IMG/VR virus record: IMGVR_UViG_3300030098_001384
Location: 1 to 55,186 of that record
DNA: 55,186 nt
Source of the DNA: a virus
Direction: 5' to 3' (one strand)
Positions 2,330 through 55,186 of the stretch are shown here, piece after piece; positions within the stretch are counted from its first letter, which is position 1, and each line of letters opens with the position of its first letter. The notes beneath the pieces were generated by a model. The model searched no databases. It had not been told where the DNA came from and saw only the letters and a program-made list of their open reading frames with translations. A program made the translations under genes and the position numbers.

Positions 2330-2560
2330 TTATAAATTATTCTCCCTATGTTCTTTCCATACTTCACTGACAAATTCTTCCAAATACTCCTCTGCATAAT
2401 TAGAGTCAAGTGACAAATCTTTGTATTTATCTGTTGACAAAAGTTTCTCAGCTTGTTTCGTGGCATCGGCAACATCGTCTGACAATTCTTTGACAATTTT
2501 TTCCACAGCTATTTGAAAGTCTATTTCTATCTCTAATATATCTTGCTTGTACTGTGTCAT
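2330..2560 (-). CDS. Small acidic helical protein, 76 aa, unknown
   Basis: ATG at 2560 overlaps the TGA of the upstream gene as ATGA, which decides the start over an upstream alternative. The product (MTQYKQDILEIEIDFQIAVE) is acidic and predicted mostly helical, ending WKEHRENNL. I do not recognise it. Confidence 0.7.
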   Translation of the reverse strand: MTQYKQDILEIEIDFQIAVEKIVKELSDDVADATKQAEKLLSTDKYKDLSLDSNYAEEYLEEFVSEVWKEHRENNL

Positions 2561-3072
2561 AGTTTGTAACCTTCCATTGTAAACCATTTAGGCATAGGCC
2601 TTGACTTTTCCCACTTGGCTATGTCTTTCTTGTCGTTGACATAATATCTCCTGTATGCCCTAACTGCGTTGTTATGGATACGTAACTTAGTAGATTTATA
2701 TTTGTCTGGCATACACTGTGGGTGTGGTGTTTTTTCCGTATCTTGATATTGCAACGTACCCCAATCTGTTTCTCTTAAATCCATAATAACTTGCTGACAT
2801 TTATGTATCTTATTATATCTCCTAGTGTACTCAAAACATAACTCCATGCCATGCTGTACTAACCAACAAAAATTATCAGCACTATCTCCTGCCCATAATG
2901 TACAGGGATGATTTTTATGTACCTCTCTATAAGGCACTAAATGGCCTTGTCCATGTCTATGAAACACAGAACATAACATTTGTGCTGTTTCTAATGGCAT
3001 CTTGACAATGTGCTTGTCACACTGCATTTGTGCTGACTGTACAGGACACTCGTCTAGTACGAATATGTTCAT
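2557..3072 (-). CDS. Conserved phage protein with CDKHIVKM motif, 171 aa
   Basis: It begins MNIFVLDECPVQSAQMQ and contains CDKHIVKMPLETAQML, a signature I associate with a widespread family of phage proteins of unknown function (residues about 18-33). Other likely conserved features are the HKNHPCTLWA segment near residue 52, an aromatic/Cys helix around residue 75 (NFCWLVQHGMELCFEY) and the C-terminal NNAVRAYRRYYVNDK helix. The Cys, His and Asp residues hint at metal binding or catalysis, but none is proven. It ends in an ATGA overlap with the next gene. It is one of the few larger proteins in this tiny-gene block. Confidence 0.75.
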   Translation of the reverse strand: MNIFVLDECPVQSAQMQCDKHIVKMPLETAQMLCSVFHRHGQGHLVPYREVHKNHPCTLWAGDSADNFCWLVQHGMELCFEYTRRYNKIHKCQQVIMDLRETDWGTLQYQDTEKTPHPQCMPDKYKSTKLRIHNNAVRAYRRYYVNDKKDIAKWEKSRPMPKWFTMEGYKL

Positions 3073-42260: not shown

Positions 42261-42495
42261 TCCTGTTCATTTCCTTAAAGTTATCCTTCAGTTTGAGGAG
42301 CATTTCCAGTAAACCCGCTTTCCCCTGCAGCCGGTACACCTCCAACTCCGATGGTGCCATTACCAGTGCCGTTAAGGTCTGCTTGTGGAGGTCCTTCAGG
42401 TAGTCCTCCAACACCTGCCATTCCATCTTGTCCTGCCCCAGCAGCGGGGCTAGGGCCTTGAGTGGCTCCTTGAGCTTCTTCAGGTTGTTGGGCAT
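42250..42495 (-). CDS. Overprinted small helical protein inside portal 3' end, 81 aa
   Basis: ATG 42495 has AAGGATTACAAG before it. The frame runs out of phase within the last 215 bases of the portal gene and ends just inside the next gene. The product begins MPNNLKKLKEPLKALAPLLG and contains VLEDYLKDLHKQTLTALVMA and LEVYRLQGKAGLLEMLLKLK, a pattern (W..L..YL......L......E..R.QG....L..LL.L) that I know from small proteins encoded next to phage portals. The portal C-terminus encoded by the same DNA is low-complexity Gly/Pro/Ala/Gln, as expected if this frame carries the selective constraint. Confidence 0.65.
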   Translation of the reverse strand: MPNNLKKLKEPLKALAPLLGQDKMEWQVLEDYLKDLHKQTLTALVMAPSELEVYRLQGKAGLLEMLLKLKDNFKEMNRNGN

Positions 42496-44389
42496 CTTGT
42501 AATCCTTTGAGTATTTCTGCGTAAATTTGTGCTTCATTTACATCATTAACTAAGCTATCTGGATCAATATCCTGTGATATAGCTAGTTCTTTTAATAAAT
42601 TTGGTATTTTAATAAATGGTGCAAGCATAGGGTTGCTTACAGTTTGTAGTAACATAGTTAATCGTTGTGAACGTACTTCTTTTTGCATTACAGAAGCAGC
42701 ACCTTTTGGTTTAATTTCTAAATCACCTATTATATCTGGATTATCATCATTAAACTGCATGTTCCATTGAAAGAAAGCTTCTCCCATAGGTTTTAGTAAA
42801 TAGTCATCTATGTTTTTAATAACAGTTTTTATAGATAATCCTGAAGAACCAAGCAACATAGATAATCCTGCAGCTGTTCTTCCTGTACCAGTTACACCAG
42901 TTTGTCCATGCATGATACTCGGTATACCTGTTTCTTCATCAGCTAATTGCCTTGCTTTATCATACATTTGTATGTTTTCACCAGCGGTACTAGGAAATTT
43001 TATACCGTTTACAGCGGTTCCAGTGACTCCTGATTGCCTTCTAAACACTTTTCCGGGAAAAATATCATAATTCTGTCCGGGTACAAGAGATGTCTCATCT
43101 ACGTCAAATACAAGGTTACCAGCTAGTGCTAAGTTATCTATAGCCATACGTACATGACCATTCATTAACATTTGTGCATCTTCCATGTTTTCTGGAACTC
43201 CTACACCCCATATTTGATAAGGACTAAGTTCATACGGAAATGCATAATATGGCATTCTTTCTGGTGTAAATGGATTAACACAAGCTCGTAAAACTTGTCC
43301 TCCAGAAATCCAGATATTTACTTGTGCTTGATCTAATGGATCTAAATCTTCACAACCCTCTATTCTCATACGTTGAGCAACGGTAGCATCTAACACACCC
43401 CAATATTCAAGTACCTCGTAACGTTCATGTTCATTATATGGTTCATTTTCATCATCACGTATTGTGTCTTCAAAATACTTTTCCATATAATTGCCACCAC
43501 CAGCAATAACTGTTCGTATAGCTTCTGGATCAAACATGGGCATATTCATAAGATTACGTAATTGAGAACGATTCATTTTATGACGTTGTATTACATATTC
43601 ACAATCATGTATGCTTGTTGCAGTTGGATCAGGATATATATCCCAAATACTTACTGCTTCAATACGGGGTACAAGCTTATCATATGGCATATAAGCTCTT
43701 CCTTCTGGTGTATCCTCCCATTTATGAATAGTTTTACCAAAATTAAATGGGCCTTTTATGATTCCTGTACCTAACAACGCTGATTCAAAAATAGAATGAC
43801 GTAAAACATTTACAGCATTAGTATCTGTAAGTTGGTCATGAATTACCTTTTCCATTGCCAATGCAGAAGATTTTGCTGGAGATATCTGCGGTTCACCCAT
43901 TTTAGCTGGACCTTCAGCTACAGGAGCTTCAGGACCAAACTTATTTATCATAGAACCTAAATAGTCTAAATTTTCATCCGCAGCTTCAGTTGCTCCCGGT
44001 GGAAAATCTCTTCCGTCACCCTCAAAACCATATGGATCAAGTATATCATCCGCAGGAGTTTTTAAATGAGCAAATTCTGCAATACCTTCTGGTATAGGTG
44101 TATGATCTACAGTCAATGGAAACTTTTTATTTGCAAATAAAATGTCTACAATTTGACCATAAGCAGCTAGTACTTTTGTCTTTGTTATTTTTATAAATAC
44201 TTTAGACTTTTCAGTACTTGTATACTGTGTAGTAGAATCATAAACTCCACGAAAGTTTTTATACGCTTTTAACCAGCGTTCTTCGTGAGTTTGTCTACCA
44301 TCTTCAGCGATACGCATACGATCTTGAATTAGTCCTATAACTCCAGAACCGTCAGATACTTCTTCTGTTATATCAGTTGGATCAGACAT
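42281..44389 (-). CDS. Portal (head-tail connector) protein, 702 aa
   Basis: Forms the dodecameric ring through which DNA is packaged and ejected. The sequence follows marine podovirus portals: N-terminal RMRIAEDGRQTHEERWLKAY, RSKVFIKITKTKV-type segment, a region of EAVSIWDIYPDPTATSIHDC (common 'v.p.d.y.DP.A....A.yvi.r' motif), YRYEVLEYWG-like strand (ERYEVLEYWGVLDATV), PYYAFPYELSPYQIWGVGVP, and the stem/crown helix with GTGRTAAGLSMLLGSSGLSI. The final 70 residues are low complexity where another gene overlaps. Order with the terminase is standard, except for the intervening recombinase-like gene and a 78-residue gene. Confidence 0.88.
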   Translation of the reverse strand: MSDPTDITEEVSDGSGVIGLIQDRMRIAEDGRQTHEERWLKAYKNFRGVYDSTTQYTSTEKSKVFIKITKTKVLAAYGQIVDILFANKKFPLTVDHTPIPEGIAEFAHLKTPADDILDPYGFEGDGRDFPPGATEAADENLDYLGSMINKFGPEAPVAEGPAKMGEPQISPAKSSALAMEKVIHDQLTDTNAVNVLRHSIFESALLGTGIIKGPFNFGKTIHKWEDTPEGRAYMPYDKLVPRIEAVSIWDIYPDPTATSIHDCEYVIQRHKMNRSQLRNLMNMPMFDPEAIRTVIAGGGNYMEKYFEDTIRDDENEPYNEHERYEVLEYWGVLDATVAQRMRIEGCEDLDPLDQAQVNIWISGGQVLRACVNPFTPERMPYYAFPYELSPYQIWGVGVPENMEDAQMLMNGHVRMAIDNLALAGNLVFDVDETSLVPGQNYDIFPGKVFRRQSGVTGTAVNGIKFPSTAGENIQMYDKARQLADEETGIPSIMHGQTGVTGTGRTAAGLSMLLGSSGLSIKTVIKNIDDYLLKPMGEAFFQWNMQFNDDNPDIIGDLEIKPKGAASVMQKEVRSQRLTMLLQTVSNPMLAPFIKIPNLLKELAISQDIDPDSLVNDVNEAQIYAEILKGLQDAQQPEEAQGATQGPSPAAGAGQDGMAGVGGLPEGPPQADLNGTGNGTIGVGGVPAAGESGFTGNAPQTEG

Positions 44390-44670: not shown

Positions 44671-46311
44671 TTAAAATCCTAGCTCGTTCATAGCTTCAAC
44701 TATACGAGCATCTTGTTCTTCACGTTCTCTTTCTTTTTGCTGTTGTTCTCCTCTTAGAACTCCTTTTCGTATTTCAGCACCACGTGGATTATACCCTTCC
44801 ATCTCAAATAATTCAGAAGCAACAGGAGATGGTTCTAAACCTATGGGTGATAATGCATCTGGAAAATCAAACGGTGCTGCTTCTGTATCAAATACCTCGT
44901 AGCCCACCCCTGTTCCTACAATTGCAGCTACAGGTTTACCTATTTTTGTTCTTGCTATAAGATCTAATACTTTTTGTGAAAGTTTTTTTGGTTTCTTTAA
45001 CATGTCGTCTGTTTGTGCTCTTATCTCTGCAGCCTTTTGTTTTTTTTCTGCAGCAGATAGTTCTTTACGAGCAATATAGTCATCAGCATCAGCTTGCCCC
45101 ATTGCTCTTACAGATTCCGATTGATTTAAATCTATGGTTGCAGGAGAGGATAGTACTGTTCCAGCTGCTGGTAAAGACTCCTTAAATCCTTTTACAAGTT
45201 GTGTTGAGTAGATTTCGTCTGTTAATAAATCTTGTGTAACTGCAATTCTAGCTGTCTTTTCTGATACGTTATCATACCCTAAATTACTTAATAGTTGACT
45301 TACAGAATTTGTTCCTGTATATGCAGCAACTTTAGCAGCTACCATATTACCAGATTGTGTTACTTTATTTTTGTTTGTTCTACTTGTTACATATCCCGCA
45401 CCTTCATCTACACCTGCTCTTCCGGTTGCTATTCTTCTTTCAGAATCTGGTGTTCCTAACTCTACATGCATAGATTCATTTGCATTTCTAAAATTATAAG
45501 AAGTAATGTTTTCTGTAACATATTTTTCTACGTTAGGTTTATATACTTGTACCCCATCTGGAAAAGCTATTTTTAAATTATCATTAATAATTTTTGTAGA
45601 ACCTTTAATGTCAGCAAAAAGTGGTCCAGAAGTACGATTACCTTTTTGTACTCGTAATATATCTAATATAGGATCAGACAAAATTATAGTTTTTTTACCG
45701 CTTTTAGTAGCTGCAGCGTTTATAACACCTGCATTAAAATTTATTTTTTCTATATTTAATCCATCCATATCAGACGGTCTAAATCCTCCAAGAAACATAA
45801 CAGAAGCTAAATTTTTTGCTTCACCATCTAAATTTGCAATAACAGAAGGAACCTTTTTGTAAAAATTATCTGGAAGTTCACTTATTATTTTTCTAGCACG
45901 TCTTTTACTCCAGCCAGATGCATCTTCGTAGGCCTTTGGGCCAACTTCTTTTTCTAATAAAGTAGAAAGATACCCCCCACGTTGTGATAACCCTGCACCT
46001 TCAAATACAGCATTTAATCTTATTATAGATTTAAGAACAGAAGCTTTTCCTCTTTTTGCTAAACTTCCTGTTATAAAAATATTTTTAAGTAACTCACCCT
46101 GTCCTTGAACTTGATTTGGAGTTAATTTAAGAAAAGTAGTCTTTTTTCCTTTACCTAAATTTATAGTATCTAAAGATAACAGTTTTTTTACAGCTGCAAC
46201 TTCCCCTTTATTATTAGGATTTTTTTTAACTTCAAGATCAAGTAACTCATCAAATGTCATATTCATTCTATCAGCTACTGCACTTTTACCTGTAAAATCT
46301 ATTTCAGCCAT
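44671..46311 (-). CDS. Tyrosine-recombinase-fold protein with altered active site, 546 aa
   Basis: Translationally coupled to the large terminase (TGATG). Residues about 60-150 are a helical core-binding-like domain. Residues about 160-320 align with a XerD/lambda-Int catalytic domain: Arg178 (GGFRPSDMDGL), Lys203 (ATKSGKKTIILSD), Tyr272-x2-Arg275 (SYNFRNANESM, in place of His-x2-Arg), Arg298 (ATGRAGVDEGAGY, in place of LGHS.....Y) and Tyr307. Spacings (R to R 97, R298 to Y307 9) are nearly those of XerD (99 and 9). Both His positions are replaced. A C-terminal extension of about 220 residues is helical and charged. It could be a working but modified recombinase or a fold reused in head assembly. 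Position in the packaging block favours a late role. Confidence 0.8.
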   Translation of the reverse strand: MAEIDFTGKSAVADRMNMTFDELLDLEVKKNPNNKGEVAAVKKLLSLDTINLGKGKKTTFLKLTPNQVQGQGELLKNIFITGSLAKRGKASVLKSIIRLNAVFEGAGLSQRGGYLSTLLEKEVGPKAYEDASGWSKRRARKIISELPDNFYKKVPSVIANLDGEAKNLASVMFLGGFRPSDMDGLNIEKINFNAGVINAAATKSGKKTIILSDPILDILRVQKGNRTSGPLFADIKGSTKIINDNLKIAFPDGVQVYKPNVEKYVTENITSYNFRNANESMHVELGTPDSERRIATGRAGVDEGAGYVTSRTNKNKVTQSGNMVAAKVAAYTGTNSVSQLLSNLGYDNVSEKTARIAVTQDLLTDEIYSTQLVKGFKESLPAAGTVLSSPATIDLNQSESVRAMGQADADDYIARKELSAAEKKQKAAEIRAQTDDMLKKPKKLSQKVLDLIARTKIGKPVAAIVGTGVGYEVFDTEAAPFDFPDALSPIGLEPSPVASELFEMEGYNPRGAEIRKGVLRGEQQQKEREREEQDARIVEAMNELGF

Positions 46312-51437: not shown

Positions 51438-51857
51438 CTAATCCTCATCATCAATATCAATTACGTTTGGCATGGGTGCCTTGCTGGGCATCATTACTAT
51501 GCCATGCAAAGCTTTTACATCATGTTCTTGTTTTTCTATTTTTCCTAGGCCAACTCTGTCTAACAACGTCTGAGCAGCCTTTAGTCGTAATTCCTGTCTG
51601 GGGTTTAACCCATCGTCATTCATAGATTCTACTACCCTAGATACAGCAGTAGCCGAATTAACGGCTAGTTCTCGTTTGGATATATCTATGATTTCATCTG
51701 CAAGGGCTTTTACAAGCCAAGTTCTAGAAGAAGGAGCATATCCTGCTGCCTCACAGGCTAAGGCTATATCTCCTCTGTTTACAAACAATGCATCAAGAAA
51801 CTTCTTTTGTTTTTCGGTAACTTCTTTTTTCTTTTCTGGTAGAAGTGCTGAGGTCAT
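51438..51857 (-). CDS. Terminase small subunit, 139 aa
   Basis: The N-terminal helix-turn-helix (TEKQKKFLDALFVNRGDIAL, ACEAAGYAPSSRTWLVKALA) has the classic small-terminase pattern 'T.KQ..FL..L......I..A...AGY'. A helical oligomerisation region follows (DISKRELAVNSATAVSRVVE; NPRQELRLKAAQTLLDRVGL), and the tail is acidic (NVIDIDDED). It recognises viral DNA for packaging by TerL. It is separated from TerL by about 3.5 kb, which is unusual. It is followed upstream by the GG-motif gene through an ATGA overlap. Confidence 0.85.
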   Translation of the reverse strand: MTSALLPEKKKEVTEKQKKFLDALFVNRGDIALACEAAGYAPSSRTWLVKALADEIIDISKRELAVNSATAVSRVVESMNDDGLNPRQELRLKAAQTLLDRVGLGKIEKQEHDVKALHGIVMMPSKAPMPNVIDIDDED

Positions 51858-52491: not shown

Positions 52492-52572
52492 CTACATCTC
52501 CGCACAAGCGTAGCAGTTTATTTCCAGCCCTACAGATATTTCATTCACTTGTGGTTTATTCCAGTTTCTCAT
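52492..52572 (-). CDS. pqqA: PqqA-like PQQ precursor peptide, 26 aa
   Basis: Peptide MRNWNKPQVNEISVGLEINC, then YACAEM. It matches PqqA, the peptide from which the redox cofactor pyrroloquinoline quinone is made: a W-x-KP start, E-I-x-V-G, then Glu17-x3-Tyr21, the Glu and Tyr that PqqE/PqqD cross-link. The C-terminal half GLEINCYACAE parallels GMEVTSYESAE of methylotroph PqqA as I recall it. The two Cys (20, 23) are unusual. ATG 52572 has AAGGAAG seven bases upstream. It is the first gene of the late transcript behind a consensus promoter. No pqqB, C, D or E lies in this genome, so the host must process it. Confidence 0.75.
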   Translation of the reverse strand: MRNWNKPQVNEISVGLEINCYACAEM

Positions 52573-52775
52573 CGGATCACTTCCTTTCATGTGTGATAAA
52601 GTTACATAGGTATCAGAGAGGGATGGCACATTATGAAAGTTAGCACTTTCCTCCGGAGATAGAATATTTATTAGTATAACCTATCCCCCTCTTCGTGGGA
52701 GTGTAGCGTTTACTCCAAGTCCTCATGTACATACACTTGTTGCAAAACTTTGAGTAGTTTATGTGCTACACTTAC
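52573..52775 (-). promoter_or_regulatory. Structured 5' leader of the late transcript
   Basis: About 200 bases separate the promoter from the pqqA-like ATG. On the minus strand AGTGTAGC (near 52765-52772) can pair with GCTACACT (near 52701), with ACTC/GAGT inside. A second stem, GAAAGT-GCTA-ACTTTC (near 52635-52650), sits directly after a strong GGAGG that has no good gene (only a 14-residue GTG frame). A regulatory leader is likely. No known riboswitch class is recognised. Confidence 0.4.
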
Positions 52776-52827: not shown

Positions 52828-52855
52828 TTGACAGGTCTGAAATACGGTGTATAAT
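52828..52855 (+). promoter_or_regulatory. Perfect consensus promoter, rightward
   Basis: The plus strand has TTGACA (52828-52833), a 16-base spacer and TATAAT (52850-52855), both perfect. It mirrors the late promoter back to back. It faces a region with no convincing plus-strand gene, which argues for a noncoding or antisense transcript. Confidence 0.85.
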
Positions 52856-52861
52856 GAAGGT

Positions 52862-53105
52862 ACCCCCGTTGGGTTAGATACATATACCTCCCCCTAGCCT
52901 CCCCTACAGGTAACTAATAGCATGGCACACTCTCCAACCAGTGGAAAATCCTCTAAGGTGGGCCTTCTGGTTGGTACCTTAAAGTATGCCCAAAAATTTC
53001 TGGTAGGGTGCCTAAAAAATACACAAAATTGTGCGTGATTGCATACAGTATACCGGGTACCCCCCACTGTCCCTTGCGTGCGGGTAACCCTTTGTTTTTA
53101 TTTAC
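52862..53105 (+). ncRNA. Candidate noncoding RNA, about 240 nt
   Basis: Predicted to start just after the rightward consensus promoter. No plus-strand frame here has a ribosome site and useful length. The DNA is richer in G and C than its surroundings. CCAACCAG (52937-52944) and CTGGTTGG (52968-52975) form a perfect 8-bp helix around an AAGG-TGGG-CCTT hairpin. Near the 3' end, GGGTACC (53056-53062) can pair with GGTAACCC (53085-53092, one bulge), followed by TTTGTTTTTATTT, which would be an intrinsic terminator. The function is unknown. Confidence 0.5.
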
Positions 53106-54624: not shown

Positions 54625-55186
54625 TTATGCCACCGCTAATTCTTCTAAGTTTTTCCAACTATCAGAATCCAACATGTTACGAACTGCAATCTCTCTTTCC
54701 TTTTGAACATTTGCCTTTTGGCTCCCTTTTCTGCCTGTAGACAATTCTACAACTTCACCTTTTTTGTTGACAGTTTCCCATGTCTCGTCAGTGTGAGTAG
54801 ACCAGTGTGTGACAGCATTGTATAAAGCCCAAAGTGTTTTGCCTAAACTGCCCTGTTCCTGTTCATATCTGTACAGCAAATAATCTGACAGTCTGGTATT
54901 GATATTGGCACTAGTTTTATCTAAGTCTTTTAATGTCTCAACTGTTCTAGATTTTTTATAAGCAACAGTGTCAGCTAATAACTTAGCAACTTGGTTATCA
55001 GTAACCTTAGCATTAGACCAAAGTTTAAACTTATCCCCTTGAGTTTGAAATACATCTAATGTGCCATTAATTTTTGACAAGGCACTTGCAATGGATAGAC
55101 CACCTGTATGTTTCCTTCTTTCATGGTAAAACTTTTGACCACCAAACACTAAGGTATTGAGACATAGACTACGATATGCACCTGTA
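54625..55186 (-). CDS. DUF932-type phage protein, C-terminal part (cut by window end)
   Basis: This is the continuation of the gene that starts at 610. From the overlap the frame reads FGGQKFYHERRKHTGGLSIA, then helices (KVTDNQVAKLLADTVAYKKS; TRLSDYLLYRYEQEQGSLGK), the motif LWALYNAVTHWSTHTDETWE and an end with SDSWKNLEELAVA. An apparent ATG at 55149 is an internal Met. The segment 'LYNA.T.W.TH' is typical of DUF932 proteins. Joined length is about 356 residues. Confidence 0.85.
   Translation of the reverse strand, partial: TGAYRSLCLNTLVFGGQKFYHERRKHTGGLSIASALSKINGTLDVFQTQGDKFKLWSNAKVTDNQVAKLLADTVAYKKSRTVETLKDLDKTSANINTRLSDYLLYRYEQEQGSLGKTLWALYNAVTHWSTHTDETWETVNKKGEVVELSTGRKGSQKANVQKEREIAVRNMLDSDSWKNLEELAVA
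55086..55186. repeat. Terminal direct repeat, right copy (assembly overlap)
   Basis: It repeats bases 1-101, differing only at 55184 (G, against A at 99). Joining the ends here restores an uninterrupted reading frame. The mismatch lies 3 bases from the contig end, where sequencing or assembly errors are common, or reflects a strain variant. Confidence 0.93.

Follow-up and report, generated by a model that had tools for sequence, protein, structure and literature searches.

The marine phage genome considered in this report was found to carry pqqA, the gene for the short peptide that serves as the precursor of PQQ, and the product is confirmed as a genuine member of the PqqA family, with a match far above chance. 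We regard it as probable that the phage uses pqqA as an auxiliary metabolic gene, which would feed the PqqBCDE pathway of the host with a precursor that is used only once. The stretch of DNA analyzed, referred to here as the window, is an entire IMG/VR virus record of 55186 bases. The features of the window needed for the discussion below are the following.

52492..52572, minus strand: pqqA, the 26-residue PQQ precursor peptide MRNWNKPQVNEISVGLEINCYACAEM; assigned from the frame, the profile matches, and codon-level purifying selection relative to contigs L073 and L118
~52578-52587, minus strand: Shine-Dalgarno-like site AAAGGAAGTG on the 5' side of pqqA; assigned from the sequence and the alignment with L073 and L118
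52782..52809, minus strand: sigma-70-type promoter TTGACA-16-TATAAT (12/12), with a leader of ~200 nt before pqqA; both hexamers are kept in L073 and L118
52219..52488, minus strand: the next gene downstream of pqqA, 89 residues, no assigned function; starts 3 nt past the pqqA stop
51438..51857, minus strand: probable terminase small subunit; weak PHROG matches (phrog_51 and phrog_2538), 93% identical and syntenic in contig L386
46311..47936, minus strand: terminase large subunit (TerL), the HMO-2011-type marker; phrog_979
42281..44389, minus strand: portal protein/head-tail adaptor; phrog_332 and phrog_1216

The preliminary description of this DNA had proposed a 26-residue frame with a good ribosome site, and this is borne out by MRNWNKPQVNEISVGLEINCYACAEM and AAAGGAAGTG on the minus strand, a detail that the proposal did not give. 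The frame runs from an ATG at 52572 to a stop whose last base is 52492. Every residue of the signature named at that time is present (W4-x-K6-P7, E11-I12-x-V14-G15, and E17-x3-Y21), and Glu17 and Tyr21 are predicted to be the pair that is cross-linked. The ribosome site is nearly identical in the alignment with L073 and L118, where it reads AAAGGGAGTG. Profile searches were fully in agreement with the assignment. The peptide matched the equivalog model TIGR02107 with an E-value of 3e-9 and 36.5 bits (curated cutoff, 20 bits), and it matched PF08042 with an E-value of 7.4e-6 and 26.3 bits (curated cutoff, 21.1 bits). The PqqA model gave a single match across the entire record and zero matches in 14 control genomes. 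No PHROG family matched the window pqqA, which supports the earlier remark that a frame this short is easily missed; genes of ~25 codons can go unnoticed in this way.

The window peptide shares its length and the W-x-K-P, E-I-x-V-G, and E-x3-Y motifs with the PqqA encoded by pqqABCDE operons, such as that of Methylorubrum extorquens. However, the window gene stands alone in a phage, with pqqB, pqqC, pqqD, and pqqE absent nearby. As had been claimed, no other pqq gene was found in the record: there was no match to the PqqE profile and no significant tblastn match to PqqB-E, nor was there a match to a PQQ-alcohol dehydrogenase. The usual pqqBCDE neighborhood, which is typical of pqqA but not obligatory for it, was not found in the window. 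The gene lies among phage genes (terminase, portal, and polymerase), in a genome with a terminal repeat.

The first 98 bases of the record are repeated at 55086, and the genome is therefore terminally redundant and essentially complete. The annotated genes include those for the terminase, portal, a DnaB-like helicase, a family A polymerase, a Cas4-like exonuclease, and ribonucleotide reductase. TerL shares 46-58% identity with that of HMO-2011-type phages of SAR116, SAR11, and Roseobacter. The closest relative of the DNA polymerase is that of HTVC033P (45%), and the window polymerase contains two CXXCXGXG repeats, at 306 and 331, which are characteristic of HMO-2011-type phages (PMC9038755). 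On the basis of TerL and the polymerase with its two repeats, the window phage is an HMO-2011-type podovirus, and it also shares ribonucleotide reductase with this group. The presence of pqqA sets it apart, since the gene is found in 0/11 of the complete genomes tested and pqq is not mentioned in the description of the group (PMC9038755). The GC content of 36%, together with ribonucleotide reductase, suggests that the phage may belong to the uncultivated subgroup X, for which a GC content of 34.4-39.0% has been reported (PMC9038755). Two other genes of the window deserve comment. An open reading frame of 546 residues (44671-46311, minus strand) lies between the terminase and the portal and weakly matches integrases/tyrosine recombinases (phrog_1, 5e-8; Phage_integrase, 1e-4, below the Pfam cutoff); this is an unusual position for an integrase. 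A DNA repair gene at 2557-3072 (minus strand) encodes a protein that resembles pyrimidine dimer DNA glycosylase (PF03013, 1e-8).

The gene is located at the same place in three related contigs (L073, L118, and L386), where the Glu and Tyr are kept and the changes are mostly synonymous. Over a core of 21 residues, the comparison of the window with L073 and L118 gave 8 changes in 13 synonymous sites and 2 changes in 50 nonsynonymous sites, which indicates purifying selection on pqqA within the sublineage of the window. Both the promoter and the synteny are kept in L073 and L118, and the sequence on the 3' side of pqqA in L073 differs from that in the window. In L386 pqqA is syntenic and TerL is 96% identical, and the gene just 3' of pqqA is 38% identical. 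Synteny among HMO-2011-type genomes had been suggested as a check, and it holds for these three contigs but not for the group at large; a profile search of 11 complete HMO-2011-type genomes (10 cultured isolates and 1 environmental) found pqqA in none. The gene is conserved only inside the sublineage of the window and is not a gene of the HMO-2011-type group. A tblastn search with the window peptide against 50,697 phage records returned nothing, and the same was true of a megablast search of phages with the structural half of the window.

In the window, pqqA is the first recognized gene of a leftward unit in which the probable terminase small subunit, TerL, and the portal follow. The gene had been placed behind the strongest late promoter. 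A perfect consensus promoter is indeed found upstream, but it is one of three perfect TTGACA-16-TATAAT matches in the window (52809-52782, minus; 52828-52855, plus; and 34648-34621, minus), and the earlier wording is amended to that extent because of the two additional sites. The unit is presumably late, judging from the terminase and portal genes downstream. Much of the leader between the promoter and pqqA has diverged in L073 and L118, unlike the two hexamers. A noncoding RNA or riboswitch in this leader was considered and rejected, with no Rfam match and with folding that did not exceed that of shuffled sequences (z = -0.86).

The divergent promoter at 52828-52855 (plus strand) lies 19 bp from the pqqA promoter, and its 28-bp core is entirely invariant in L073 and L118. 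It faces ~500 bp with no recognized plus-strand gene, followed by minus-strand genes; the region of this rightward promoter has no Rfam match and ordinary folding (z = -0.69). Within an otherwise diverged intergenic region, ~100 bp at 52990-53090 are strongly conserved relative to L073 and read GATGCCC...TGCGTGATTGCATACAGT...GGGTACCCCCCA. This stretch is possibly an origin, a packaging site, or a regulatory site.

The peptide is short, and degenerate PqqA codon patterns were used as the search method for other viral copies. Approximately 0.002 chance matches to the degenerate pattern are expected per 1e11 positions. At least 119 stretches with pqqA were found in IMG/VR with this pattern, and all patterns together gave at least 346 viral loci. 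When 30 long viral records were searched in their entirety, each was found to have exactly one pqqA (30/30) and none to have pqqE (0/30), which is present in the host control. No credible match to PqqB, PqqC, PqqD, or PqqE was found near pqqA in 331 viral loci, compared with 19-28 of the 82 host-genome loci. One viral match (21% identity, E = 0.001) was discarded as a generic radical SAM protein. The contigs that carry pqqA fall into ~17 gene-content communities of at least three members, as defined by modularity; single-linkage grouping had merged almost everything. The carriers include podoviruses with a portal and contractile-tailed phages that encode a tail sheath or a baseplate wedge protein. 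The genes adjoining pqqA differ widely among these phages, and thus pqqA was apparently acquired more than once. A third peptide type, GFEVTMY, which resembles that of beta- and gammaproteobacteria, was found in 101 viral stretches. Its carriers (L421-L519 and others) include phages with tail sheath and tail fiber genes, and one copy resides on a 340-kb contig (L432). A record titled Maricaulis sp. MAG IN14 (L121) has a phage-type pqqA and the flanks of a viral group, and it looks like a phage contig that was binned into a bacterial MAG.

The first search pattern fixed the Glu and Tyr codons, and two later scans left both of them free. These scans returned 69 and 73 distinct sequences. Glu and Tyr are present in every one of them, and each residue is encoded by both of its codons in the set. 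Conservation of Glu17 and Tyr21 in related phages, which had been proposed as a check, holds in all cases. Values of pN/pS over all of the pattern-selected phages are biased by the fixed columns of the pattern; recomputed on the free columns, pN/pS is 0.46 overall and 0.24 in columns 11, 17, and 19-21.

Candidate hosts were sought with a strict pattern and one genome per species. This search returned 82 stretches, mostly from HIMB59-type marine single-cell genomes and MAGs. In the HIMB59 order, pqqA is present in 31/32 genomes with up to five copies each; the figure for the class sample is 71/385. One HIMB59 copy heads pqqBCDE, as confirmed by profiles. Among 71 HIMB59 copies, pqqB follows 15 and 49 are orphans; the remaining 7 are too near the end of the locus to be assigned. 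In the HIMB59 genomes (~1-2 Mb; e.g., L140, L141, L158, and L162) the orphan copies are dispersed among unrelated genes, and each copy has its own ribosome site. The large number of orphans indicates that cells, too, have repeatedly resorted to a higher dosage of pqqA. In a second alphaproteobacterial order, 22 of the 28 genomes have pqqA, usually before pqqB, and the peptide ends with NCYACAE[I/L/V] in every locus read. The plausible hosts therefore hold the complementary pathway: pqqABCDE in HIMB59, and PqqE in most of the second-order genomes searched. Most of the hosts that match the phage peptides also encode PQQ-alcohol dehydrogenases, with a strong match in the five HIMB59 genomes searched.

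The viral peptides mirror those of the hosts, with the HIMB59 type ending in NSYACAEK and the second-order type ending in NCYACAE[I/L/V]. Among the viral peptides, those with Ser mostly end in Lys or Gln, and those with Cys end in Ile, Leu, Met, or Val. The peptide MWKSPVVKEVAVGLEINCYACAEI is identical in 8 viral and 3 host loci, for which the DNA similarity between phage and host spans little beyond the gene and its ribosome site. Both the Ser and Cys types are found inside two phage communities, and thus the peptide type appears to be tied to the host more than to the lineage of the phage. The window peptide is of the Cys type, from which the host is predicted to be a PQQ-making marine alphaproteobacterium. 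The preliminary description had also expected a PQQ-making host. Such bacteria with matching peptide types do exist, but the window TerL has no match in 60 genomes of HIMB59 and the second order (0/60).

In the mechanism that we favor, pqqA would be transcribed first in the structural and packaging unit of the phage during infection. The PqqD of the host would bind the phage peptide, and PqqE would cross-link Glu17 to Tyr21. PqqE from M. extorquens joins Glu16 and Tyr20 of PqqD-bound PqqA (PMC10906245). A host protease, PqqB, and PqqC would then finish PQQ, and the cofactor would load host quinoproteins, such as the XoxF-type methanol/alcohol dehydrogenases, for respiration during phage production. 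Since one peptide is spent for each PQQ, a gene of 26 codons would be the cheapest route to a raised or sustained flux, and pqqA would be carried alone because PqqA is consumed one for one whereas PqqB-E are reused. In Acetobacter, PQQ increased by 29% with extra pqqAB and eightfold with the whole operon (PMC7936290). These values indicate that the supply of precursor can matter but is not the sole limit, and the fact that PqqA is not always limiting counts against a feeding function. A methylotroph with five pqqA copies has been described (PMC9851590). Its orphan genes and those of HIMB59 are, like that of the window, solitary, with their own ribosome sites and one PqqBCDE set to feed, but they are chromosomal and the window gene is viral. 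We infer the timing of expression, a limiting supply of PqqA during infection, the rise in PQQ, and the dehydrogenase that is served; the last of these is an assumption because a PQQ-alcohol dehydrogenase was found in 0/16 phage records.

The phage gene might replace rather than boost the host supply. If the phage degrades host mRNA or DNA, the short-lived supply of PqqA would collapse, and the phage pqqA would restore it. The sequence evidence is the same as that for feeding, and a stoichiometric PqqA with catalytic PqqB-E would again explain the carriage of pqqA alone. This version, which differs from feeding in quantity only, is unlikely.

The peptide had also been suggested to divert or decoy the pathway. 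An abundant phage peptide could titrate the chaperone and saturate PqqD and PqqE, lowering host PQQ and halting quinoprotein metabolism, and the phages do lack all of the pathway enzymes. However, a decoy would benefit from the loss of Glu or Tyr, and both are invariant while the synonymous codons vary. A defective decoy is disfavored because a substrate needs both residues, and feeding fits this pattern, although the conservation would also fit a productive substrate that competes for PqqD and PqqE. The phage peptides also match the host types, even letter for letter, as a good substrate should. We consider a decoy or diversion quite improbable.

It is harder still to support recruitment of the peptide to a regulatory or structural function outside of PQQ biosynthesis. 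In the lineage of the window the gene stands first in the terminase/structural operon, and in other lineages it is near portal genes, but its position varies among phages. The residues that are conserved are those of PqqA, among them the Glu and Tyr that take part in the chemistry, and the sequence type goes with the host more than with the lineage of the phage; the probability of such a function is very low. The existence of orphan pqqA in host genomes means that some short IMG/VR contigs may be misclassified host DNA, but an artifact of this kind, or a chance frame, is refuted for the window by its terminally redundant HMO-2011-type genome and is of negligible probability, given that the annotated long pqqA contigs contain phage structural genes and that chance matches to the pattern are so rare.

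The preliminary description knew of no established role for pqqA in phages. This statement requires correction, since a phage pqqA has already been reported once, from Lake Baikal, where PqqA is found beside methanol dehydrogenase on the T4-like methylophage contig VP_266 (PMC7678222). The gene was read there, as it is here, as an auxiliary metabolic gene. VP_266 is a single T4-like contig with a Methylophilaceae host and a methanol dehydrogenase gene, whereas the window is an HMO-2011-type podovirus with a peptide of the alphaproteobacterial type, and pqqA is its sole recognized PQQ gene. Viral pqqA, pqqD, and pqqE have also been listed from reservoir sediments (PMC13188868). In the open-license literature searched, no paper describes how widespread viral pqqA is, that it occurs in the absence of the remaining PQQ genes, or that it matches hosts, and the breadth and host matching of phage pqqA appear to be unreported. 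The case is more general than was supposed at the outset and, as a single gene, less unprecedented.

The products of most known auxiliary metabolic genes are enzymes or proteins that can be used over and over. A precursor peptide encoded by a phage and destroyed with each molecule of cofactor represents a different economy, and it allows a direct test of whether infected cells are limited by PqqA. The sequences suggest that phages commonly supply this consumable precursor so that the infected cell may keep making PQQ. Phage pqqA is a marker of host type for uncultured phages, and it connects viruses with marine PQQ-dependent oxidation. On balance, we lean toward the broader proposal that supply of the precursor alone is a common viral strategy, in which many unrelated marine phage lineages would have independently taken a mobile pqqA of ~90 bp from their hosts and kept it matched to the PqqD and PqqE of the current host, thereby controlling, in the course of infection, PQQ-dependent oxidation, such as the lanthanide-dependent oxidation of methanol, in abundant uncultured Alphaproteobacteria such as HIMB59.
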